64,000 nt of DNA from Panopea generosa. Taxonomy: Eukaryota > Mollusca > Bivalvia > Adapedonta > Hiatellidae. Every line of letters begins with the position of its first letter. Positions within the stretch are counted from its first letter, which is position 1. The stretch spans positions 2,418,001-2,482,000 of the forward strand of contig CM055912.1 of assembly GCA_029582155.1 (NCBI GenBank), read 5' to 3'. Below the pieces are notes generated by a model. The model had not been told where the DNA came from and ran no database searches. It saw only the letters and a program-made list of their open reading frames with translations. Shown here piece by piece: positions 1-56,090 of this stretch. Position numbers and translations under genes: made by a program.

Positions 1-239
1 TCTCGACGTTACTAACATTGGGTTGAAAGTAATGGAAGAAAGAAAAAAAAGAAACATTACTTCCAGGTGTCCAGGATGTCATGTTTGTTTTTCTTGAATC
101 TATTTTAGCTTGATTGCGAAGTAAACTCGGAGCTTTCGTAAATCGGTCTCGAGTCCGTCTCTTTGTAGAACCAGTACAGGACAATATTTATAATGTGTCA
201 GCTGATCGATCTTATATTAGTTTTAAACTTATTTATTTT

Positions 240-426
240 ACATCGATTTAAAACAAGTTCTTACAATTAAGACAAATTACGCTCAGAATCTTCCTGGGTA
301 GAACCAACTAAACATGCGGATAAAGTTTGTTGCTCAAGGACACTGTCCATAGTCGTGGTGGAGGATGGAACCCACGATCCCCAATCTTTGGTCCGATGTT
401 CTACCACTGGACTATGCACTCCACAT
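240..426 (-). mobile_element. tRNA-derived SINE, family A, near-complete copy
   Basis: Read on the minus strand this has a tRNA-like head with an A-box-like stretch (TAGTCCAGTGGTAGAACAT), a degenerate B box (GTGGGTTCCATCC), then GTGTCCTTGAGCAA and a tail with GTTCTACCCAGGAAG. The same order is seen at 42003-42200 and 50023-50205, so this is a dispersed element. I call it family A here. It is non-coding and would have been transcribed by RNA polymerase III. The short open frame crossing it has no coding support. Confidence 0.75.
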
Positions 427-8171: not shown

Positions 8172-8274
8172 TTTTCATCATTTCGAGTGAACTTAATTTA
8201 TGAAATATGTCGCGAATGCCGCAATGGGAAACCGTAAGTTTATACTAGTTTAGAATGTGATTTGTTTGTTATTC

Positions 8275-11085
8275 GTGGAATGCGTGGTCAAGTGGTAGGG
8301 CATGAACGGAGGATCTTGGAGCGCGTGGTCCATTGGTGGAACATGAACGGAGGGTCGTTGAACGCGTGGTCTAGCGGTAGAACATAAATTGAGGGTCGTG
8401 TAGTGCGTGGTCCTGTGGTAGAGCATGAACGGAGGGTCGTTGAACGCGTGGTCTAGCGGTAGAACATAAATTGAGGGTCGTGTAGTGCGTGGTCCTGTGG
8501 TAGAGCATGAACGGAGGGTCGTGGAGTGCGTGGCCCAGTGGTAGAGCATGAACGGAGGGTCGTGGAGTGCGTGGTCCAGTGGTAGAGCATGAACGGAGGG
8601 TCGTGGAGTGCGTGGCCCAGTGGTAGAGCATGAACGGAGGGTCGTGGAGTGCGTGGTCCAGTGGAAGAGCATGAACGGAGGGTCGTGGAGTGCGTGGCCC
8701 AATGGTAGAGCATGAACGGAGGGTCGTGGAGCGCGTGGTCTAGCGGTAGAACATAAATTGAGGGTCGTGTAGTGCGTGGCCCAGTGGTAGAGCATGAACG
8801 GAGGGTCGTGGAGTGCCTGGCCCAGTGGTAGAGAATGAACGGAGGATCGTAGATTGCGTGGCCCAGTGGTAGAGCATGAACGGAGGGTCTTGGAGCGCGT
8901 GGTCCAGTGGTAGAGCATGAACGGAGGGTCATGGAGTGCGTGGCCCAGTGGTAGAGCATGAACGGAGGGTCGTGGAGTGCGTGGCCCAGTGGTAGAGCAT
9001 GAACAGAGGGTCGTGGAGTGCGTGGCCCAGTGGTAGAGCATGAACAGAAGGTCGTGTAGTGCATGGCCCAGTGGTAGAGCATGAATGGAGGGTCTTGGAG
9101 CGCGTGGTCCAGTGGTAGAGCATGAACGGAGGGTCGTGGAGTGCCTGGCCCAGTGGTAGAGAATGAACGGAGGATCGTAGATTGCGTGGCCCAGTGGTAG
9201 AGCATGAACGGAGGGTCTTGGAGCGCGTGGTCCAGTGGTAGAGCATGAACGGAGGGTCATGGAGTGCGTGGCCCAGTGGTAGAGCATGAACGGAGGGTCG
9301 TGGAGTGCGTGGCCCAGTGGTAGAGCATGAACAGAGGGTCGTGGAATGCGTGGCCCAGTGGTAGAGCATGAACGGAGGGTCGTGGAATGTGTGGTCCTGT
9401 TGTAGAGCGTGAACGGAGTGTCGTGGAATGCGTGGTCCAGTAGTAGAGCATGGACGGAGTGTCGTGGAGTGCGTGGCCCAGTAGTTGAGCATGAATTGAG
9501 AGTCGTGGAACGCATAGTCCAATAGTTGAACGTGGTATGCGTGGTCCAGTGGTAGAGCATGAATGGAGGGTCATGGAATGCGTGGTCCTGTTGTAGAGCA
9601 TAAACAGATGGTCGTGGAGCGCGTGGTGCAGTGGTAGAGCATGAACGGAGGGTCGTCGAACGCGTAGTCCAGTGGTGGAGCATGAACGGAGGGTCATGGA
9701 GTGCGTGGCCCAGTGGTAGAGCATGAGCGGAGGGTCGTGGAGTGTGTGGCCCAGTGGTAGAGCATGAACAGAGGGTCGTTTTATTCCAGGTCCTGTGGTA
9801 GAGCATGAACGGAGTGTCGTGGAATGCGTGGTCCAGTAGTAGAGATGTCCAGGGGTAGAGCATGAACGGAGGGTCGTGGAATGCGTGGTCCAGTAGTAGA
9901 GCACGAATTGAGAGTCGTGGAACGCATAGTCCAATGGTTGAGCGTGGTATGCGTGGTCCAGTGGTAGAGCATGAACGGAGGGTCGTGGAATGCGTGGTCC
10001 TGTTGTAAAGCATGAACGGATGGTCATGGAGCGCGTGGTGCAGTGGTAGAACATGAACGGAGGGTCGCAGAGCACGTGGTCCAGTGGTAGAGCATGAATG
10101 GAGGGTCGTGGAACGCGTGGTCTAGTGGAAGAGCATGAACGGAGAGTCGTGGAACGCTTGGTCCAGCGGTAGAGCATGAACGGAGGGTCGTGGAATGCGT
10201 GGTCCCGTGGTAGAGCATGAACGGAGGGTCGTGGAGTGCGTGGTCCAGTGGTAGAGCATGAACGGAGGGTCGTGGAACGCGTGGTCCAGTGGTAGAGCAT
10301 GATCGGAGGGTCTTGGAACGCGTGGTCCGGTGGTGGAGCATGAGCGGAGGGTCGTGAAATGCATGGTCCAGTGGTAGAGTATGAAGGGAGAGTTGTGGAA
10401 AGCGTGGTCTAGTGGTAGAGCATGAACGGAAGGTCGTGGAACGCGTGGTCCGGTGGTTGAGCATGAACGGAGGTCGTGGAATGTGTTGTCCTCCGGTAGA
10501 GCATGAACGGAGGGTCGTGGAATGCGTGGACCAGTGGTAGAGCATGAACGGAGGGTCGTGGAGTTCTTGGCCTAGTGGTAGAGCATGAACAGAGGGTCTT
10601 GGAGCGCGTGGTCCAGTGGTAGAGCATGAACGGATGGTCTTGGAACGCGTGGTCCGTTGGTTGAGCATAAACGGAAGGTCGTGGAGTGCATGGTCCAGTG
10701 GTAGAGCTTGAACGGAGAATTATGGAAAGCGTGGTCCAGTGGTAAAGCATGAACGGAGGGTCGTGGAACTCGTGGTCTGGTGGTGGAGCGTGAACGGAGG
10801 GTCGTGGAATGCGTGGTCCAGTTGTAGAGCATGAACGGAGGGTCGTGGAACGCGTGGTCTGGTGGTGGAGCATGAACGGAGGGTCGTGGAATGCGTGGTC
10901 CAGTGGTAGAGCATGAACGGAGAGTTGTGGAATGCGTGGTCCTGTGGTAGAGCATGAACGGAGAGTCGTGGAACGTATGGTCCAGTGGTAGAGCATGAAC
11001 GGAGAGTCGTGGAGCGCGTGGTCTAGTGATAAAGCATGAACGGAGGATCGTGGAGTGCATGGTCCTGTGGTGGAGCATGAATACA
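8275..11085 (+). repeat. 41-bp minisatellite built from the head of SINE family A, ~68 units
   Basis: The consensus runs GCGTGGTCCAGTGGTAGAGC followed by ATGAACGGAGGGTCGTGGAG. This matches the 5' part of the family A SINE (compare 50023-50075): the A-box region is kept and the unit stops at the GTGG where the B box would begin. The SINE has TTGTGG or CGTGG at both places, so unit boundaries coincide with a short direct repeat inside the element. A 41-bp period is 2 mod 3, so one stop-free phase cycles through all minus-strand frames. This explains several long overlapping minus frames, the longest 587 codons. These are not genes. Confidence 0.92.
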
Positions 11086-11089
11086 CATT

Positions 11090-12215
11090 TCTGTATATGC
11101 TTTGTATTGGTTATACCCAGGCAGACTTCGACTCGTTTATATAGTTTGTTTTTGTCATCTTTTCCTGAATTTAAACTTAACTATTCGTGTTGTCCGGTGA
11201 CAAAATGGACACAACAGCTATGTTTGCGACTTCTCAGTAATAACGTTTGTTTCTGATTTAAGAGAAATCGCCGAGGTAGTCCGAGTTTTGGTTTAACCAA
11301 TCAACAACTTTATCCGAATCTCAGTACAATTGTTTGCAAAAGGAATTGTCAAAAAGATATTAGACATATCATATGGAAAATAATGCATTTACTTGACTAA
11401 ATATTATGTTTTGTTTTCTGTTAATCATAAGTATAAGAACTATTTTATCGACTTTTTATCTTTATACTAAGAATATATTTTAAACTATTATCCTGTGAAT
11501 CATATGAAAATGATTTGAAAGTTTACTCGAATTAGAATTAATTAAATACACGTTGTGTTGATATTGCATTTTATTACACCAGTCTTCAGTCAAACATAAA
11601 ACGTCAATCTTGATTATAAAGTGAACAGTTTTACTTAATAAAAGAAGAATTTTGACATTAAAATCGCACGAGCCTTGCAATCCGTATAGTAAACGTGTAA
11701 TAAACAGACAAATTAAACCGTTGTACCCAGACTTAATACACACTAACTATCTTTTGTTAAGTTAAATACGTGAATAATTATTGTAGAACAACTGCTTTCG
11801 GAAATGAAAATATTGCGTTCGCTAATTCTCAATCGCCACACAAACGATATCGTGGATTGTTTAGAAACTAAAATTCTATAAAATCATCTTTAGAATCTGT
11901 TCCGTTGCGCTTAATATTGCACTATGACAAAAAACAACTTAAAATATGTAATATACAGTGACGATCTTACACGCTCCTGACATACAGAACATGCAGGGAA
12001 TGAATCCTAAAATGTTACAGACTGAAAAACATTATACATTTGCTGATATTAATATATAAAAATACAGAAGTCAAAATATAACTACTTTTTTGAACTATTC
12101 AACATACACAAAACATTAAAAATAGGTAAAAAATCATGAGTTGACATACTGTATAATACACTCATTTCAAATAAAAACATATTACCAAACAGTTGATATC
12201 TAATAATTGACTATC
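11090..12215. other. Unassigned AT-rich stretch
   Basis: No repeat, RNA or coding signal is recognised. One 87-codon minus frame (11480-11743) has no domain, no acceptable splice context and AT-rich composition. Confidence 0.5.
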
Positions 12216-12218
12216 ATG

Positions 12219-12285
12219 GATTGTTGTTGTTGTTGTATAGTGTAAAGTGTCACTTTTAACACTATTTCAGTTACATTGCGACGGT
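12219..12285 (+). repeat. Element D 5' segment flanking the 69-bp array
   Basis: A GTTGTTGTTGTTGTATAGTG run, a TGTCACTTTTAACAC box and CATTGCGACGGTGCCTA match 32960-33030 and 37106-37176 (GTTGTTGTATTGTGTTTAGC, then ATGACGGTGCCTACC). This marks a single-copy dispersed element in which the following array is embedded. Confidence 0.65.
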
Positions 12286-13275
12286 GCCTAGTGGAGCGCT
12301 GCCGCTGTTGCAGACACATGTTATGATACCCCGGTCACATTATACTGACACGGTGCCTACTGGAGCGCTGCCGCTGTTGCAGACACATGTTATGATACCC
12401 CAGTCACATTATACTGACACGGTGCCTACTGGAGCGCTGCCGCTGTTGCAGACACATGTTATGATACCCCAGTCACATTATACTGACACGGTGCCTACTG
12501 GAGCGCTGCCGCTGTTGCAGACACATGGTATGATACCCCAGTCACATTATACTGACACGGTGCCTACTGGAGCGCTGCCGCTGTTGCAGACACATGGTAT
12601 GATACCCCGGTCACATTATACTGACACGGTGCCTACTGGAGCGCTGCCGCTGTTCCAGACACATGGTATGATACCCCAGTCACATTATACTGACACTGGG
12701 CCTACTGGAGCGATGCCGCTGTTGCAGACACATGGTGTGATACCCCGGTCACATTATACTGACACCGGGCCTACTGGAGCGATGCCGCTGTTGCAGATAC
12801 ATGGTAAGATACCCCAGTTACATTATACTGACACGGTGCCTACTTGAGCGCTGCCGCTGTTGCAGACACATGGTATTATACCCTGGTCACATTATACTGA
12901 CACCGGGCCTACTGGAGCGCTGCCGCTGTTGCAGACACATGTTATGATACCCCAGTCACATTATACTGACACGGTGCCTACTTGAGCGCTGCCGCTGTTG
13001 CAGACACATGTTATGATACCCAGGTCACATTATAATGACACGGTGCCTACTGGAGCGCTGCCTCTGTTGCAGACACATGGTATGATACCCCAGTCACATT
13101 ATACTGACACGGTGCCTACTGGAGCGCTGCCGCTGTTGCAGACACTTGGTATGATACCCCGGTCACATTATACTGACACGGTGCCTACTGGAGCGCTGTC
13201 GCTGTTGCAGACACATGGTATGATACCCTGGTCACATTATACTGACACGGTGCCTACTTGAGCACTGCCGCTGTT
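12281..13275 (+). repeat. 69-bp minisatellite derived from element D, ~14 units
   Basis: The unit joins GGTGCCTACTGGAGCGCTGC, CGCTGTTGCAGACACATGG and GTCACATTATACTGACAC. The period of 69 bp (23 codons) keeps forward frames open until point changes such as TACTTGA introduce stops at about 12845, 12982 and 13259. The core is shared with the 87-bp array at 48840-49505. Non-coding. Confidence 0.9.
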
Positions 13276-13530
13276 GCAGTATCACTGTATACCATACGGA
13301 GATATTGAACTGCGGGTATCACTATATACCATACGGAGATTATATACCATACGGAGATATTGAACTGCGGGTATCACTGTATACCATACGGAGATTTTGA
13401 ACTGCGGGCATTACTATAAACCATACGAAGAAATTGAACTGCAGGTATTACTATATACCATACGGAGATGTTGAACTGTAGATATTACTATATATACCAT
13501 ATGGAGATATTGAACTGTAGGTATTATTAT
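13276..13530 (+). repeat. 37-bp minisatellite, about seven units
   Basis: ACTATATACCATACGGAGAT followed by ATTGAACTGCGGGTATC repeats with starts near 13292, 13329, 13347 (short unit), 13384, 13420, 13458 and 13498. It abuts the 69-bp array directly. Confidence 0.85.
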
Positions 13531-31600: not shown

Positions 31601-31699
31601 GGAAGCAGGCTCCAAAGAACGCTTCATCTAAATTCTGAGCTTACTTCGTAATTGCGTAATATATATATATACAGTTGATACTCACCAACTCGAACTCTG

Positions 31700-31996
31700 A
31701 TATTTCGAATTTCCGGTTATCTCAAATTTGAAGTTCGGTCCCGTTTTTTCCCCTTTTATTTCTATATTAATTAACTCCGGATATATCAAATTCCAGTATT
31801 TCGAATTATTCACTATTTCGAATCTGTTTTTGGGTCCCTTCATCCTAAAATCTATTGATTTCTCACTCGTTATTTCGAATTTTTATCACCGCGTAAAGAT
31901 GTAAGGCAAACCGTCGAAGGTGATAATTTCTGTAATTTATCGCTTCATGTGTCGGTACTGGCAGGTAAGTTAATTGTGTCATCAAATTGTTATGAT
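31700..31996 (+). repeat. Duplicated pogo-element segment, copy 1
   Basis: It matches 33721-34017 with about three substitutions in 296 bp by my reading (for example CCTTTTATT against CCTTCTATT). The two copies flank the 1.7-kb insert as direct repeats. Confidence 0.9.
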
Positions 31997-32004
31997 TACA
32001 GACA

Positions 32005-32612
32005 AGATTAGGACTGGCTCCACCCCGGAAGATTAATACTGGCTCCACCCCGGAAGATTAGTACTGGCTCCACCCCGGAAGATTAGTACTGGCTCCACCC
32101 CGGAAGATTAGTACTGGCTCCACCCCGGAAGATTAGAACTGGCTCCACCCCGGAAGAGTAGTACTGGCTCCACCCTGGAAGATTAGTACTTGCTCCACCC
32201 CGGAAGATTAGTACTGGCTCCACCCTGGAAGATTAGTACTGGCTCCACCCTGGAAGATTAGTACTGGTTCCACCCCGGAAGATTAGGACTGGCTCCACCC
32301 AGGAAGATTAGTACTGGCTCCACCCTGGAAGATTAGTACTGGCTCTACCCTGGAAGATTAGTACTTGCTCTACCATGGAAGATTAGTACTGGCTCCACCC
32401 TGGAAGATTAGTACTGGCTCCACCCTGGAAGATTAGTACTGGCACTACCCTGGAAGATTAGTACTGGCTCCACCCTGGAAGATTAGTACTGGCTGCACCT
32501 GGAAGATTAGTACTGGCTCTACTCTGGAAGATAAGTACTGGCTCTACCTTGGAAAATTAGTACTGGCTGCACCCTTGAAGATTAGTACTGGCTCCACCAT
32601 GGAAAACTTCGA
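32005..32612 (+). repeat. 25-bp minisatellite, ~24 units (copy of part of 35241-36766)
   Basis: The unit is AGTACTGGCTCCACCC followed by (c/t)GGAAGATT. Variants TACTTGCTC, GGCTGCACC and GAAGAGTAG appear in the same order as in the downstream array. Confidence 0.93.
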
Positions 32613-32954
32613 GTGTTGCATGCACTTGTTTCGCAATCAATGAAAAATAAATAAGATTTAACATAATTTAAACACTATAACGGTACGTACATTAGTAAGA
32701 GTTCCAGTCCATTATAAAATGTGCTATAACTTCAATTTGGTGTCGTCATTTAATACGCAATGGGATTCAGAGAAGTTAAGATTTTTTAGTTATAAAAAAT
32801 GTCAGCTTTAGATGTGTAACGAAACCTGCAACTGAACATTAAGACAGGAGATAACCTCACGGAAAGTGATTATGCTCCCATTATAAAACGTGACATGCAA
32901 ATAAAAATTGTCTACCAGACTATCCTCCAGTCAATACGGCTCCAATGACATGTG

Positions 32955-33095
32955 AAAGTTGTTGTTGCTGTTGTTGTATTGTGTTTAGCGTCGCTTTCGA
33001 CACTTTTTCAGTCATATCATGACGGTGCCTACCAACAGTAGTCTAGGCGCTGTCACACTGGGAATATCATGCCGCAGTCACGTGCGGTACAACAG
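32955..33095 (+). repeat. Element D, single copy
   Basis: GTTGTTGTTGCTGTTGTTG, a TAGCGTCGCTTTCGACAC box, ATGACGGTGCCTACC and ATCATGCCGCAGTCACGTG. This is the unamplified form of the sequence that is tandemly expanded at 12281-13275. Confidence 0.6.
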
Positions 33096-33720
33096 AAGAA
33101 TTATTTAGTGGTGTTGTAGATCTAGTAAGGTAAACATTAAAATATCAGGTAAAATCACCATTGAAAGGTAGCAGTTTTACTTCAATGACAGAACTACGCT
33201 AGTTTACTCAGATGATTCCGCAGCAATACGATGCATAATTGGTAAAGTGCCATATATGATAGATAGGCCCATCGCCATGGCATGTGTATACAGGCAGCAG
33301 GGACGCTTCTTCGAAACTTCAGGAACTTTCCGACGTTACAATTGTTTGTCAAGAACGTCGCCACATCGCTTCGCGATCGCGTATATTGTTTATGAAATAG
33401 TGTGTAACCTTTTACCTACTGCTGGTTGTGTACATTCATTCAAAATATATTAAACTACCTCATGTTCAAATGGAGCATATCGCTGAAAAATATCACGAAA
33501 TTCCACGTATACATTTGATCACCCCATGTTTTAATATATTTACGTTCTATACAAATGTAACTGTTTGATTTTATCAAATCTCGGTTGCGCATAATTCTCT
33601 TTCGCTAGGTCAATATTCTTGGATGCTAATTCACAACTCTGAGATGAACTCAAAGATAACCTTATTTCGAATAATGTTCACCAATGATATGAGAAAATAA
33701 ATTGAATTTACAGACATCTG

Positions 33721-34017
33721 TTATTTCGAATTTCCGGTTATCTCAAATTTGAAGTTCGGTCCCGTTTTTTCCCCTTCTATTTCTATATTAATTAACTCCG
33801 GATATATCAAATTTCAGTATTTCGAATTATTCACTATTTCGAATCTGTTTTTGGGTCCCTTCATCCTAAAATCTATTGATTTCTCACTCGTTATTTCGAA
33901 TTTTTATCACCGCGTAAAGATGAAAGGCAAACCGTCGAAGGTGATAATTTCTGTAATTTATCGCTTCATGTGTCGGTACTGGCAGGTAAGTTAATTGTGT
34001 CATCAAATTGTTATGAT
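33721..34017 (+). repeat. Duplicated pogo-element segment, copy 2
   Basis: Second copy of 31700-31996. An 81-codon frame (33749-33994) crosses it, but the same frame is broken in copy 1, so no protein is inferred. Confidence 0.88.
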
Positions 34018-34629
34018 ATAAACACGAGCGATACACACGCTAATTATACAAACAACGCCGAAGTGTTAGAAGAAGTTTTTGACATGTGCTATTTTCGTCT
34101 TAGTTCTTATTTGTAAAATTGTTGTAACCATTGCTTGTATATAACCTGTGTTTATATTTCAGTTGCATATTCTATTTATTTGATATTCATGTAATTAAAA
34201 AGTATAAAAATTAAAAGTATATTTTGTTATCTATTATATCACACTCAAAAATATAAAATGTTCACGCACTGTGCAAATAGGCATTTAGCTTACACACGGA
34301 TAACAACACACAACATACGTTTGCGTAGAAGGAAGTAACGCATGTAAACACTAGAATTTACCACGATTTAAGATAAATCCACAGTATACATCAATATAAA
34401 CAAAGTTTATAGCATGTGTAAATATAACCACAACGTGTTATAGTTAAAAAACAAACAAAAACAAATAGAGGTATTTATAGGTATAACGTGTATATTTTTA
34501 ACGATTTATGAAGTGGGTAGGGTAACGGTAAAAAGTTGAACAAACATAGACTCCTGATAAATCGAACTTCGGATATTTCGAATTATTTTCAAGGTCCAAC
34601 GGAATTCGAAATAACGAGTTTTGACTGTA

Positions 34630-35125
34630 TTAGTATACTTGGTAATTAACCAAAGACAGAAAAAAATCGGAATGACGTCATGTGTTTTTGATTTGAAAAC
34701 AAAAGATGCAATAGACAAATAAGCATTCGTGGCTTGTAGTACGTGTTTCTTTAAATATTAACATGTAAGCATAACTTAATTTAAACGACTCATATTCCAT
34801 ACACCTTTGTATAATTATGAATACTTAAATAAGTCATTGCTATAATCTGGTTTACAGTATTTCTTATTACATACGTAATTCAAAGTAGAGGTATGTAGAG
34901 TAAATAACTAATTGCTGGCATATGTCTCTCATTTGCAATTTTCGTATTTTGTGTTAACATTGGGGCAGAATGGCCATGATATTTTTTTTCTAATATCTGC
35001 AATGAAACGTTTCTGCGAAGTATGCTTCTGATTGGTTGTGTTTCACAAAAAATAAAATATTTTTGTGTTTTTGAATGCGTTGGTTCTGTTGGAAAAAGAA
35101 CATTTTGTAACGTATTGATATACTA
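34630..35125. other. Unassigned AT-rich stretch
   Basis: Between the pogo-like right end and the next SINE head I see no feature. Confidence 0.5.
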
Positions 35126-36800
35126 TAGAGAAGTGGTTAGTGGTAAAGCATTGGTACGAAGACTGCGGCGTTGTGGGTTCATTCCTCTGTCACGGTTATG
35201 TGTGGTGTCATTGAGAAAAGCATTAATTCTGCATATGCTTAGTACTGGCTCTACTCTGGAAGATTAGTACTGGCTCTACCCTGGAAGATTAGTACTTGCT
35301 CCACCCTGGAAGATTAGTACTGGCTCTACTCTGGAAGATTAGTACTGGCTCCACCCAGGAAGATTAGTACTGGCTCCACCCTGGAAGATTAGTACTGGAT
35401 CCACCCTGGAAGATTAGTACTGGCTCCACCCTGGAAGATTAGTACTGGCTCCACCCCGGAAGATTAGTACTGGCTTCACCCCGGAAGATTAGTACTGGCT
35501 CCACCCCGGAAGATTAGTCCCAGGAAGATTAGTACTGGCTCCACCCCGGAAGATTAGTACTGGCTCCACCCTGGAAGATTAATATTGGCTCCACCCCGGA
35601 AGATTAGTACTGGCTCCACCCAGGAAGATTAGTACTGGCTCCACCCCGGAAGATTAGTACTGGCTCTACCCCGGAAGATTAGTACTGGCTCCACCCCGGA
35701 AGATTAGCACTGGCTCCACCCCGGAAGATTAGTACTGGCTCTACCCTGGAAGATTAGTACTTGCTCCACCCCGGAAGATTAGTACTGGCTCCACCCCGGA
35801 AGATTAGTACTGGCTCCACCCCGGAAGATTAGTACTGGCTCCACCCCGGAAGATTAGTACTGGCTCCACCCAGGAAGATTAGTACTGGCTCCACCCCGGA
35901 AGATTAGTACTGGCTCCACCCCGGAAGATTAGTACTGGCTCCACCCCGGAAGATTAGTACTGGCTCCACCCAGGAAGATTAGTACTGGCTCCACCCTGGA
36001 AGATTAGTACTGGCTCTACCCTGGAAGATTAGTACTTGCTCCACCTTGGAAGATTAGTACTGGCTCTACCCTGGAAGATTAGTACTGGCTCCACCCTGGA
36101 AGATTAGTGCTGGCTCTAAAATGGAAGATTAGTACTGGCTCCACCCCGGAAGATTAGTACTGGCTCCACCCCGGAAGATTAGGACTGGCTCCACCCCGGA
36201 AGATTAATACTGGCTCCACCCCGGAAGATTAGTACTGGCTCCACCCCGGAAGATTAGTACTGGCTCCACCCCGGAAGATTAGTACTGGCTCAACCCCGGA
36301 AGAGTAGTACTGGCTCCACCCTTGAAGATTAGTACTTGCTCCACCCCGGAAGATTAGTACTGGCTCCACCCTGGAAGATTAGTACTGGCTCCACCCTGGA
36401 AGATTAGTAATGGCTCCACCCCGGAAGATTAGGACTGGCTCCACCCAGGAAGATTAGTACTGGCTCCACCCTGGAAGATTAGTACTGGCTCTACCTTGGA
36501 AGATTAGTACTTGCTCTACCCTGGAAGATTAGTACTGGCTCTACCCTGGAAGATTAGTACTGGCTCCACCCTGGAAGATTAGTACTGGCTCCACCCAGGA
36601 AGATTAGTACTGGCTCCACCCTGGAAGATTAGTACTGGCTGCACCTGGAAGATAAGTACTGGCTCTACTCTGGAAGATAAGTACTGGCTCTACCTTGGAA
36701 AATTAGTACTGGCTGCACCCTTGAAGATTAGTACTGGCTCCACCATGGAAAACTTCGAGTGTTGCATGCACTTGTTTCGCAATCAATGAAAAATAAATAA
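35126..36800 (+). mobile_element. Family A SINE with internally expanded tail module
   Basis: A head with GAAGTGGTTAGTGGTAAAGC, a B-box-like GTGGGTTCATTCC and CACGGTTATGTGTGGTGTCA leads into the array at 35241. After the array the normal SINE end resumes: GGAAAACTTCGAGTGTTGCA, then TTGTTTCGCAATCAATG. Single-copy relatives have one AGTACTGG module at this place (42107-42135), so the array lies inside one SINE. Confidence 0.85.
35241..36766 (+). repeat. 25-bp minisatellite inside a SINE, ~60 units
   Basis: The unit is AGTACTGGCTCCACCC plus (c/t)GGAAGATT. One truncated unit lies at about 35512-35530. The unit equals the AGTACTGGTT...GGAAAACTT stretch of the family A tail. Confidence 0.95.
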
Positions 36801-37866
36801 GATTTAACATAATTTAAACACTATAACGGTACGTACATTAGTAAGAGTTCCAGTCCATTATAAAATGTGCTATAACTTCAATTTGGTGTCGTCATTTAAT
36901 ACGCAATGGGATTCAGAGAAGTTAAGATTTTTTAGTTGAAAAAAATGTCAGCTTTAGATGTGTAACGAAACCTGCAACTGAACATTAAGACAGGAGATAA
37001 CCTCACGGAAAGTGATTATGCTCCCATTATAAAACGTGACATGCAAATAAAAATTGTCTACCAGACTATCCTCCAGTCAATACGGCTCCAATGACATGTG
37101 AAAGTTGTTGTTGCTGTTGTTGTATTGTGTTTAGCGTCGCTTTCGACACTTTTTCAGTCATATCATGACGGTGCCTACCAACAGTAGTCTAGGCGCTGTC
37201 ACACTGGGAATATCATGCCGCAGTCACGTGCGGTACAACAGAAGAATTATTTAGTGGTGTTGTAGATCTAGTAAGGTAAACATTAAAATATCAGGTAAAA
37301 TCACCATTGAAAGGTAGCAGTTTTACTTCAATGACAGAACTACGCTAGTTTACTCAGATGGTTCCGCAGCAATACGATGCATAATTGGTAAAGTGCCATA
37401 TATGATAGATAGGCCCATCGCCATGGCATGTGTATACAGGCAGCAGGGACGCTTCTTCGAAACTTCAGGAACTTTCCGACGTTACAATTGTTTGTCAAGA
37501 ACGTCGCCACATCGCTTCGCGATCGCGTATATTGTTTATGAAATAGTGTGTAACCTTTTACCTACTGCTGGTTGTGTACATTCATTCAAAATATATTAAA
37601 CTACCTCATGTTCAAATGGAGCATATCGCTGAAAAATATCACGAAATTCCACGTATACATTTGATCACCCCATGTTTTAATATATTTACGTTCTATACAA
37701 ATGTAACTGTTTGATTTTATCAAATCTCGGTTGCGCATAATTCTCTTTCGCTAGGTCAATATTCTTGGATGCTAATTCACAACTCTGAGATGAACTCAAA
37801 GATAACCTTATTTCGAATAATGTTCACCAATGATATGAGAAAATAAATTGAATTTACAGACATCTG
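36176..37866 (+). repeat. Duplicated block, downstream (donor-like) copy
   Basis: It corresponds to 32005-33720. Here the block is continuous with the rest of the array on its left and unrelated unique sequence on its right, so this location is taken as the source. It includes a second copy of element D (37103-37240) and an identical 68-codon frame (37393-37599; 33247-33453) with no recognisable domain. Confidence 0.9.
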
Positions 37867-37869
37867 TTA

Positions 37870-42002: not shown

Positions 42003-42200
42003 GTGGCGGAGCGTATGATCCAGTGGTAGATCACCGAGGGTTTGGGTTAGATCCTCCCCCACGGTTATGTGTGGTGTCATTAAGCAAGGCACTTTCCCGC
42101 ATGTGAGCAGTACTGGTTGCACATAGGAAAACTTCGAGGATGATTTGTATAAGTTGTAATATCTTGTTTCACAATCGAAGTAAAATAAATAAGTTAAAAC
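42003..42200 (+). mobile_element. Family A SINE, full-length copy
   Basis: GGAGCGTATGATCCAGTGGT (A-box region), GGGTTAGATCCTCC (B-box region), CGGTTATGTGTGGTGTCATT, AGTACTGGTTGCACATAGG, AACTTCGAGG and TTGTTTCACAATCGAAGTAA, ending in an AAATAAAT-type A-rich tail. About 195 bp. It is the best single-copy reference for the head and tail arrays. Confidence 0.85.
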
Positions 42201-44605: not shown

Positions 44606-45155
44606 AAAAAGGAGCGCTTGGTCAAGTTCAAGGACTTCGGACGCAAAAAAGGAGGGTCGTGGGTTTGATCCTCTGCCACGGCCGTTAGTTTAATAATATT
44701 TTATTGCAGGATTCATTATATAATACACAGGTATATAAAAAGTGACATAATAATCATGAAAAAGGGAATTGGGTTGGTCTATAAGTTCTTCCAACATTAG
44801 TTACAGTCCTTCCCACAGCGTTACATGTTACGTTTATTAAACTAAAATGGCGGGGGAAAACAAACAAACGAACGAACGAACGAACGAACGAACGAACGAA
44901 CGAACAAATAAATACTTCAAATTGTAGAAAGCGAAAAAGAGAAAAAAAAAGAATATAAGAAAAATAACATCATCACTACCCCTGCCGTCCCTGCTTGGCT
45001 GCTACCCTCGCCACCCCTGCCCATAACCTGTCACGGTTATGTGTGGTGTCCTTGAGCAAGACACGTTGTTTGAGTATGTTTAGTTCTGGTTCTACCTAGG
45101 AAGACTTTGAGTGTGATGTCACTGGCTTCACAATCGAAGTAAAATTAAAAAAATG
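44606..45155 (+). mobile_element. Family A SINE split by a ~335-bp insert
   Basis: The head GGAGCGCTTGGTCAAGTTC...GTCGTGGGTTTGATCC ends at about 44690. The body resumes at about 45026 with TGTCACGGTTATGTGTGGTG, TTCTACCTAGGAAGACTT and TTCACAATCGAAGTAAAATT. A (CGAA)n-containing sequence lies between. The inserted piece has no recognised termini. Confidence 0.7.
44866..44906 (+). repeat. (CGAA)n microsatellite
   Basis: About nine uninterrupted CGAA units lie inside the insert that splits a SINE. Confidence 0.95.
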
Positions 45156-48839: not shown

Positions 48840-49505
48840 TACATGGTATGTTACACCATCCTGTTACATTGTACCGACATACCTAGACATATCCTCTAAA
48901 TGCTGAGCGCAGACACATGGTATGGTATCCCGCCCTGTCACATTATACTGATACCGGGGCTGACCAGACCTTGAAATTTCCCCTAAATGCTAAGTGCAGA
49001 CTCATGGTATGGTATCCCACCCTGTCACATTATACTGATACCGGGGCTGACCAGACCTTGAAATTTCCCCTAAATGCTAAGTGCAGACTCATGGTATGGT
49101 ATCCCACCCTGTCACATTATACTGATACCGGGGCTGACCAGACCTTGAAATTTCCCCTCAATGCTAAGTGCAGACTCATGGTATGGTATCCCGCCCTGTC
49201 ACATTATACTGATACCGGGGCTGACCAGACCTTGAAATTTCCCCTCAATGCTAAGTGCAGACTCATGGTATGGTATCCCACCCTGTCACATTATACTGAT
49301 ACCGGGGCTGACCAGACATTGAAATTTCCCCTAAATGCTAAGTGCAGACTCATGGTATGATACCCCACCCAGTCATATTATACTGACACCGGGGCGACCA
49401 GACCTACAAATATTCTCTAAATGTTGAGCGCAGAAGACACCTGGCATGATACCCCATCCAGTCACATTATACTGACACCGGGCCGACCAGACCTAGAAAT
49501 GGACA
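48840..49505 (+). repeat. 87-bp minisatellite sharing its core with element D array
   Basis: Five near-identical units plus degenerate edge units. The unit contains CAGACTCATGGTATGGTATC, CTGTCACATTATACTGATAC, CGGGGCTGACCAGACCTTG and CCCCTAAATGCTAAGTG. The first two stretches match the 69-bp unit at 12281-13275; the rest does not. The 87-bp period keeps a 147-codon plus frame open, which I regard as non-coding. Confidence 0.92.
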
Positions 49506-50022: not shown

Positions 50023-50210
50023 GTGGAGCGCATGGTCCAGTGGTAGAGCATGTCTAGATTGGAGGGTTGTGGGTTCGATACTCCGGCGCTGTTTTATATG
50101 GTGTCCTTGAGTAACCCCTTTCCGTTACTGTTTAGTACTGGTCTACGTGAGTGATGAGTATAAAGTGTCATAACGTGTTTCACGATCGAAGTAAAATTAA
50201 ATAAATTAAA
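50023..50210 (+). mobile_element. Family A SINE, full-length copy
   Basis: GTGGAGCGCATGGTCCAGTG, a good B box in TGTGGGTTCGATACTCC, TGGTGTCCTTGAGTAACCC, TTAGTACTGGTCTACGTGAG and TGTTTCACGATCGAAGTAAA, ending AAATAAATTAAA. TTGTGG occurs both at the start and just before the B box; this is the pair of short repeats that bound the 41-bp unit at 8275-11085. Confidence 0.88.
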
Positions 50211-55883: not shown

Positions 55884-56090
55884 GCGGCGGAGCAATCCAC
55901 AGCGATCTCAAGATGTTGCGCCTCCCGCTGTTGAGGTCTCGGATTTGTGCACAGAGTGGCTCAGTATGTATGATGTCTTTGAGCCAGATACTTTATTTGC
56001 ACATGTATATAACTGGATCTACTCAGGAAGACTTCGAGCGTGACTTATTGCAATAACTTGTTTCACAAACAAGGTAAATTTCTACCTCTA
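55884..56090 (+). mobile_element. Family A SINE, diverged copy
   Basis: The 3' half, AACTGGATCTACTCAGGAAG, ACTTCGAGCG and CTTGTTTCACAAACAAGG, matches the family A tail. The head (GGCGGAGCAATCCACAGCG, GAGGTCTCGGATTTGTGC) is badly eroded. Confidence 0.6.

Follow-up and report, generated by a model that had tools for sequence, protein, structure and literature searches.

The window, that is the whole stretch of DNA that was analysed, is 64,000 nucleotides long and corresponds to C19:2418001–2482000 of a 1.474 Gb assembly of Panopea generosa. It holds a SINE copy in which a tandem array of short units lies between the upstream part and the 3′ end of the element:

35126..35238, forward strand: diverged upstream (tRNA-related) part of the SINE copy, ending where the first module begins; aligned to the consensus from 35170, the start being that given in an earlier sequence-only reading of this DNA
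35239..36750, forward strand: array of 61 units of 25 bp, from TRF, comparison of the unit with the SINE consensus and unit splitting
36751..36807, forward strand: 3′ end of the SINE copy, after the module; aligned to the consensus with one 13-nt gap

TRF describes the array with a period of 25, 60.9 copies and 90% matches, and splitting it into units gives 61 of them, 58 of which are 25 bp long, the others being 15, 24 and 23 bp. These head-to-tail units with length variation make it a minisatellite (a class that ranges from about 10 to 100 bp) and not satellite DNA proper, which is defined by very long arrays, the longest array of this unit that was seen being 6.5 kb. No block repeats above those of shuffles were found within it.

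The SINE family was defined with an ordinary window copy (42021–42192) as the query, which returned 3413 first-look candidates; 40 of these were scored, all 40 matched, and 30 loci were cut out. The consensus, 209 nt of which was used, was built from 29 of the 30 (the paralogue of the query was left out). The element is dispersed in many copies that share their 5′ and 3′ ends, 29 loci falling on one consensus, and each of these carries one module in the stretch printed; when 5 mismatches are allowed, 27 of 28 copies have exactly one module and the remaining one has none. Target-site duplications of at least 8 nt across the insertion, and of up to 13 nt (L049), are present in 10 of the 26 scorable copies (three of the 29, whose ends were not recognised, were left unscored), a figure that includes one duplicated locus twice (L041 and L043) and a CTA repeat (L066). 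The two copies of that duplicated locus, C27:912433 (+) and C27:654513 (−), have the same flanks in opposite orientation and form an inverted duplication on C27. The window copies at 35126 and 42021 gave negative results in the search for target-site duplications: for the former, nothing was above chance, as 131 of 200 shuffles do as well. As DNA, the head of the SINE has a better fold than 198 of 200 shuffles (z −2.59), and it contains what read like putative pol III boxes A and B; ARAGORN finds no tRNA in the window and no Rfam family matches there.

On this consensus, the 25-bp unit corresponds to nt 117–141 (88% alike), window 35170–35263 aligns with nt 49–141, the head (nt 1–48) being unaligned there, and the last module with the 57 nt that follow aligns with the end of the consensus (aligned stretch 36728–36807). 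Two other window copies align to the 35126 copy from about position 35139, at 67–69%. Since the array is flanked by the upstream part of the consensus on one side and by its tail on the other, it is the central module of a single SINE copy. The sequence-only reading had seen about 60 repeats of a 25-bp module inside one SINE copy, with which TRF and the alignments on both sides agree; it had located this module in the tail, a label that has to be replaced, as nt 117–141 are central in the consensus.

The 35126 copy is matched at E 6e-10 or better by five further family copies of the window, and at E 0.002 by the SINE remainder that follows the head array described below. Their alignments reveal no second module.

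42021..42192, forward strand: family copy, single module
229..408, reverse strand: family copy, single module
45028..45151, forward strand: family copy, single module, 5′ part unmatched
50039..50204, forward strand: family copy, module partly deleted
55965..56078, forward strand: family copy, single module, 5′ part unmatched

The array has a counterpart on the same contig. A search with window 35000–35200 detects one further place, C19:3084669, about 632 kb away, where an array of 260.9 units (approximately 261, C19:3084908–3091428, 6.5 kb) is joined to the same SINE part. The flanks of this partner array are 98.5% (over 611 bp) and 98.1% (over 1073 bp) identical to those in the window, and window 8273–54899 aligns along C19:3062899–3112499 (50 kb fetched), mostly at 92–97% but at 87% over 8273–13141. 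The pair is either a segmental duplication or a retained haplotype; in both cases, two copies of one locus hold 61 and 261 units. The partner array contains block repeats at a lag of 79 units (match 0.31, compared with 0.215 in the best of 200 shuffles) and identical runs of 14 and 13 units, when 50 shuffles give at most 6. As a separate observation, a probe from C19:2.70 Mb has 81 matches, all on C19 and most of them at 2.66–3.46 Mb (also at 5.20 Mb), some in close tandem; it represents a clustered multi-copy family.

The window also contains a second, shorter array of the same unit, which the sequence-only reading does not mention and which lies in an insertion:

31672..34627, no strand assigned: DNA-transposon-like insertion that holds the paste, with ends CAGT...ACTG and TA on both sides, absent at the partner
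31696..31996, forward strand: first copy of a 301-bp segment flanking the paste, 98.7% identical to 33717–34017
32004..33723, forward strand: pasted copy of 36150–37869 (array end and about 1.1 kb of flank), 98.9% over 1720 bp
32004..32604, forward strand: second array, 24 units (24.1 copies by TRF) of the unit of the 35239 array, copied from its end
33717..34017, forward strand: second copy of the 301-bp segment

The partner locus is devoid of window 31671–34627. The insertion begins with CAGTTGATACTC and terminates with GACTG, the TA on both sides being within a TA-rich stretch and the CAGT and ACTG ends pairing only imperfectly; we assume that it is a putative DNA transposon of the Tigger/pogo type. 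An independent origin of the 32004 array was considered and rejected, since this array is part of a pasted copy that sits between the two 301-bp segments. The paste looks like a local templated insertion. At its left junction there are 7 extra bases, of a kind that the pasted piece also has close to its right end, and our guess is that they were templated from there.

The comparison of the paste with its source, which can be used as a clock, gives 3 differences in 1115 bp outside the array, versus 16 in 601 bp inside it when no one-unit gap is introduced (Fisher p 1.3e-5), or 11 in 575 bp when one extra unit is allowed in the paste (24 units, versus 23 in the source, Fisher p 0.0008). At 13 of the 16 differing sites, each of the two states can be found within the 35239 array itself, in its 58 regular units, a pattern that exchange between units would produce. 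The array alters faster than its flank, and it does so by whole units.

A different stretch of the same SINE family is amplified upstream, within 30 kb:

8273..11081, forward strand: head array, with a 41-bp unit that is SINE nt 2–51 less 9 nt (TRF, alignment, direct repeat)
11089..11135, forward strand: SINE remainder after the head array, a single module and the nucleotides that follow it (alignment)

The 41-bp unit aligns to the consensus with one 9-nt gap, the array starts at the 5′ end of the SINE, and later SINE sequence follows it. In the consensus, the amplified stretch is bounded by GTGG direct repeats that are 50 nt apart. The CGTGG repeat, whose copies are also 41 nt apart, was rejected as the origin of this unit, which has both GTGG stretches. 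Since the array at 8273 aligns to the SINE head and is followed by SINE sequence, the claim in the sequence-only reading that two modules of one SINE family became two minisatellites holds, with the head array and the module array placed on one consensus.

The same reading had proposed that copies with few modules should be looked for, their complete absence being a refutation, and this search was run genome-wide. A loose pattern designed on the window's own 25-bp unit matches 318 + 5 = 323 places (control 0), 308 of which are in the window and in the 50 kb around the partner. A stricter pattern for the family-type unit matches 3 places at two loci (control 0): about 26.7 units of 25 bp at the C17 locus (L073), and about 10 modules with mixed spacing at the C16 locus. 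The pattern for exact tandem module pairs, GGTTCTACCCAGGAAG-N(2-30)-ACTGGTTCTACC, occurs 411 + 349 = 760 times (0 + 0 for the reversed-pattern control). It is important to note that long arrays enter this count many times and that 760 is a number of places, not a rate per SINE copy. The 100 pairs listed, out of 760, are on C1 to C4 (to 27.4 Mb), that is about 327 of 1474 Mb if the list order is complete; grouped at 6 kb they form 27 loci with 10 modal unit lengths, 34 bp in 15 loci, 43, 44 and 46 bp in two each, and 30, 37, 39, 40, 45 and 49 bp in one each.

The sequence of six stretches was read. L074, whose whole three-module copy is only a few hundred bases long, runs from the SINE upstream part through three 43-bp modules, no more, to the SINE tail, and AAGAC stands at each module border; L077 and L076 belong to opposite ends of a single locus, which has a SINE head, 37-bp units and a SINE tail. 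L075 has four 34-bp modules, L078 has three, and L079 is part of a 45-bp array. Intermediates with few modules therefore exist, as three- and four-module copies were read. The upstream part of L071, L073, L075 and L078 (...AAAACAACACTCAG) differs from that of the consensus family, and we take these four to be members of a second SINE family that carries the module.

For the head of the SINE, 11 + 23 = 34 exact pairs were found (control 0), all of which are listed, at nine loci: C7, C11, C13, C14 (two), C17, C18, C19:33.55 Mb (18 pairs), and the C19 window with its partner, counted once. At C19:33549511–33554176, which holds these 18 pairs, the unit is 48 bp long and combines SINE head sequence with a stretch that the consensus lacks. 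A genome-wide pattern for pairs of one stretch of the SINE tail has no match. The order 760, 34, 0 for module, head and tail does not result from the conservation of the words used in the consensus SINE family, since the exact 19-mer of the module is the least conserved of the three (kept in 5 of 28 family copies, against 11 for the head and 17 for the tail). Position within the SINE thus seems to matter for tandem duplication, though both the second family and the long arrays may exaggerate this order.

The mechanism that we consider probable is the following. The starting point would have been a tRNA-related SINE copy, old and ordinary, whose central module was duplicated in tandem and in place; the array would then have lengthened and shortened on the spot as units were gained or lost and blocks duplicated, leaving the flanking parts of the SINE where they were. 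The module, and less often the tRNA-related head, would start arrays at other SINE copies too, with unit lengths that differ among loci because the breakpoints differ. The first step would be slippage or a microhomology-mediated duplication, and growth would proceed by unequal exchange or slippage. The arrays would most likely be a neutral by-product of a mutation-prone stretch that is present in very many copies, and we propose no function for them. There is good support for local duplication with change in steps.

As for the first step, short direct repeats are located where some of the arrays start, namely AAGAC around the module and CGTGG or GTGG in the head. No direct repeat spanning the module core is longer than AAGAC, at consensus positions 96 and 138, and the junction that AAGAC predicts is found at 4 of the 27 loci obtained from the 100 pairs listed, not at the other 23. 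CGTGG, at positions 10 and 51, predicts a 41-bp junction, which is found at the C11 head-pair locus. CTT, the nearest repeat, predicts a 26-bp unit; the window unit has 25 bp, and neither array contains a 26-bp unit. Nor is the SINE especially rich in direct repeats, as the consensus has 4 of at least 5 nt at 20–60 nt spacing, compared with a shuffle mean of 4.9. Since repeats are at shuffle level, CTT is one base off and 23 of 27 loci lack the AAGAC junction, slippage or microhomology is likely at some starts and may or may not have operated at the others. The proposal in the sequence-only reading that the family has built-in slippage points is weakened accordingly: the repeats are ordinary 4–5 nt ones, and some junctions do fit. 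Its other proposal, that the family acts as a satellite seed, stands in so far as tandem arrays start at many loci, "satellite" being too strong a word for arrays of which the longest seen is 6.5 kb. A hairpin in the module was also considered as the driver and found no support, the folding of module dimers being unremarkable (z −0.07 and 0.42).

Other explanations of these observations have to be considered. That the assembler made the joins between array and SINE, or the length of the array, is very improbable. Tandem arrays are hard to assemble, and the partner, on the same contig and 92–97% alike in most blocks (87% over 8273–13141), could be a retained haplotype; however, two separately assembled loci have the same joins on both sides, with flanks that are 98% alike and very different lengths, one of the two holds an insertion that is absent from the other, and the three-module copy L074 is short. 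It is quite possible, with chances somewhat short of even, that the SINE is unexceptional: in a genome rich in minisatellites, a family with thousands of copies would simply be struck often, and the arrays of the window would be chance members. Arrays (period of at least 15, at least 3 copies) indeed occupy 29.9% of the window; at 28 other SINE-centred loci (88,413 bp, in which L041 and L043 share flanks) they occupy 9.87%. Direct repeats are not enriched in the consensus. None of the 19 arrays at these 28 loci matches the SINE or the 34-bp module, so that, minisatellites being common in this genome without the SINE, the latter is one source among many. What speaks against pure chance is the order of pair numbers given above, tail 0, head 34 and module 760, in spite of the module 19-mer being the one least often exact, an argument that is tempered by the fact that L071, L073, L075 and L078, whose upstream part is different, also carry the module. 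We also note that the arrays at 12281–13279 and 48881–49500, with units of 69 and 87 bp, have consensus units that share, by eye, a stretch ending CACATTATACTGA, perhaps the module of another repeat family.

The chances are only just below even that a master copy which already had at least two modules was retroposed, so that module number was dispersed with it and varied only later, at many loci. A 34-bp unit is common to 15 of the 27 loci from the 100 pairs listed, all 15 with the junction form AAGNNGACARCA, and for 9 of them no more than two exact pairs are among those listed; the 34-bp class may be a multi-module subfamily spread by retroposition. On the contrary, the other 12 loci have nine further modal unit lengths (30–49 bp) and there are 25-bp arrays at C17 and C19, an indication that there were between several and about ten separate starts, bearing in mind that unit length can also change later; moreover, the loose matches of the window unit are confined, for 308 of 323, to the window and the surroundings of its paralogue. 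We therefore favour duplication in place, with repeated starts at other copies. A bolder version of this appears doubtful at present: the central module, which two or more kinds of SINE carry in this genome, would be a genuine hotspot, and the frequency with which it initiates minisatellites in situ would, counted per copy, greatly exceed that of other SINE stretches. If it were true, each burst of SINE insertion would plant thousands of pre-formed minisatellite seeds, of which the graded series from 2 to 261 units would be today's outcome.

The onset of minisatellites is poorly understood in general, and the present family provides a natural series for how they arise and lengthen. It offers an unusually good set of stages, since single modules, doubles, few-unit copies and long arrays are found in one genome. 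With one stretch of 25–50 bp in thousands of copies, per-copy counts of starts, breakpoints and growth become possible, and module, head and tail of one element give a built-in comparison for minisatellite starts.

SINE-derived minisatellites have already been described in human (PMC3389668) and in mouse (PMC9659126). The human survey of minisatellites derived from transposable elements (Ahmed and Liang 2012, PMC3389668) attributes 2663 of them to Alu and says that they grow locally with time; in AluS, two regions are spanned by more tandem repeats than the other regions. Flanking direct repeats of 5–20 bp fit only 300 of its 7,276 repeats, and the established mechanisms account for only about 6% of starts (PMC3389668). 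Tandem repeats derived from copies of a transposable element, local growth and hot regions are thus shared with the Alu case as described there. The two differ in that the mean unit number of the Alu classes is 2.30–2.42 (PMC3389668), compared with 61 and 261 here, and in that one short central module supplies most of the pairs that we counted.

In mouse, a VNTR family derived from SINE B1, (GGCAGA)n (Bois et al. 1998, as listed in PMC9659126), is likewise a case where a short stretch internal to a SINE has become a family of unstable tandem arrays. Going by that entry, the Panopea units are longer (25–49 bp) and have varying breakpoints, and a second stretch, the head, also grows. A molluscan example is PcH-sat of the limpet Patella caerulea, a pericentromeric repeat with a 179-bp monomer that makes up about 10% of the genome and is related to Nin-SINE (PMC11121367). 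By its description, it resembles our arrays in being a tandem repeat of a mollusc that contains a SINE-like stretch (118 bp), and differs from them in that here the arrays are scattered and the host SINE is still recognisable on both sides in several copies. Last, Hydromantes Hy/Pol III and Xenopus satellite 1 are listed as tandem DNA from the tRNA-related region of SINE-like elements (PMC9659126), an origin that, by description, resembles that of the head array at 8273.
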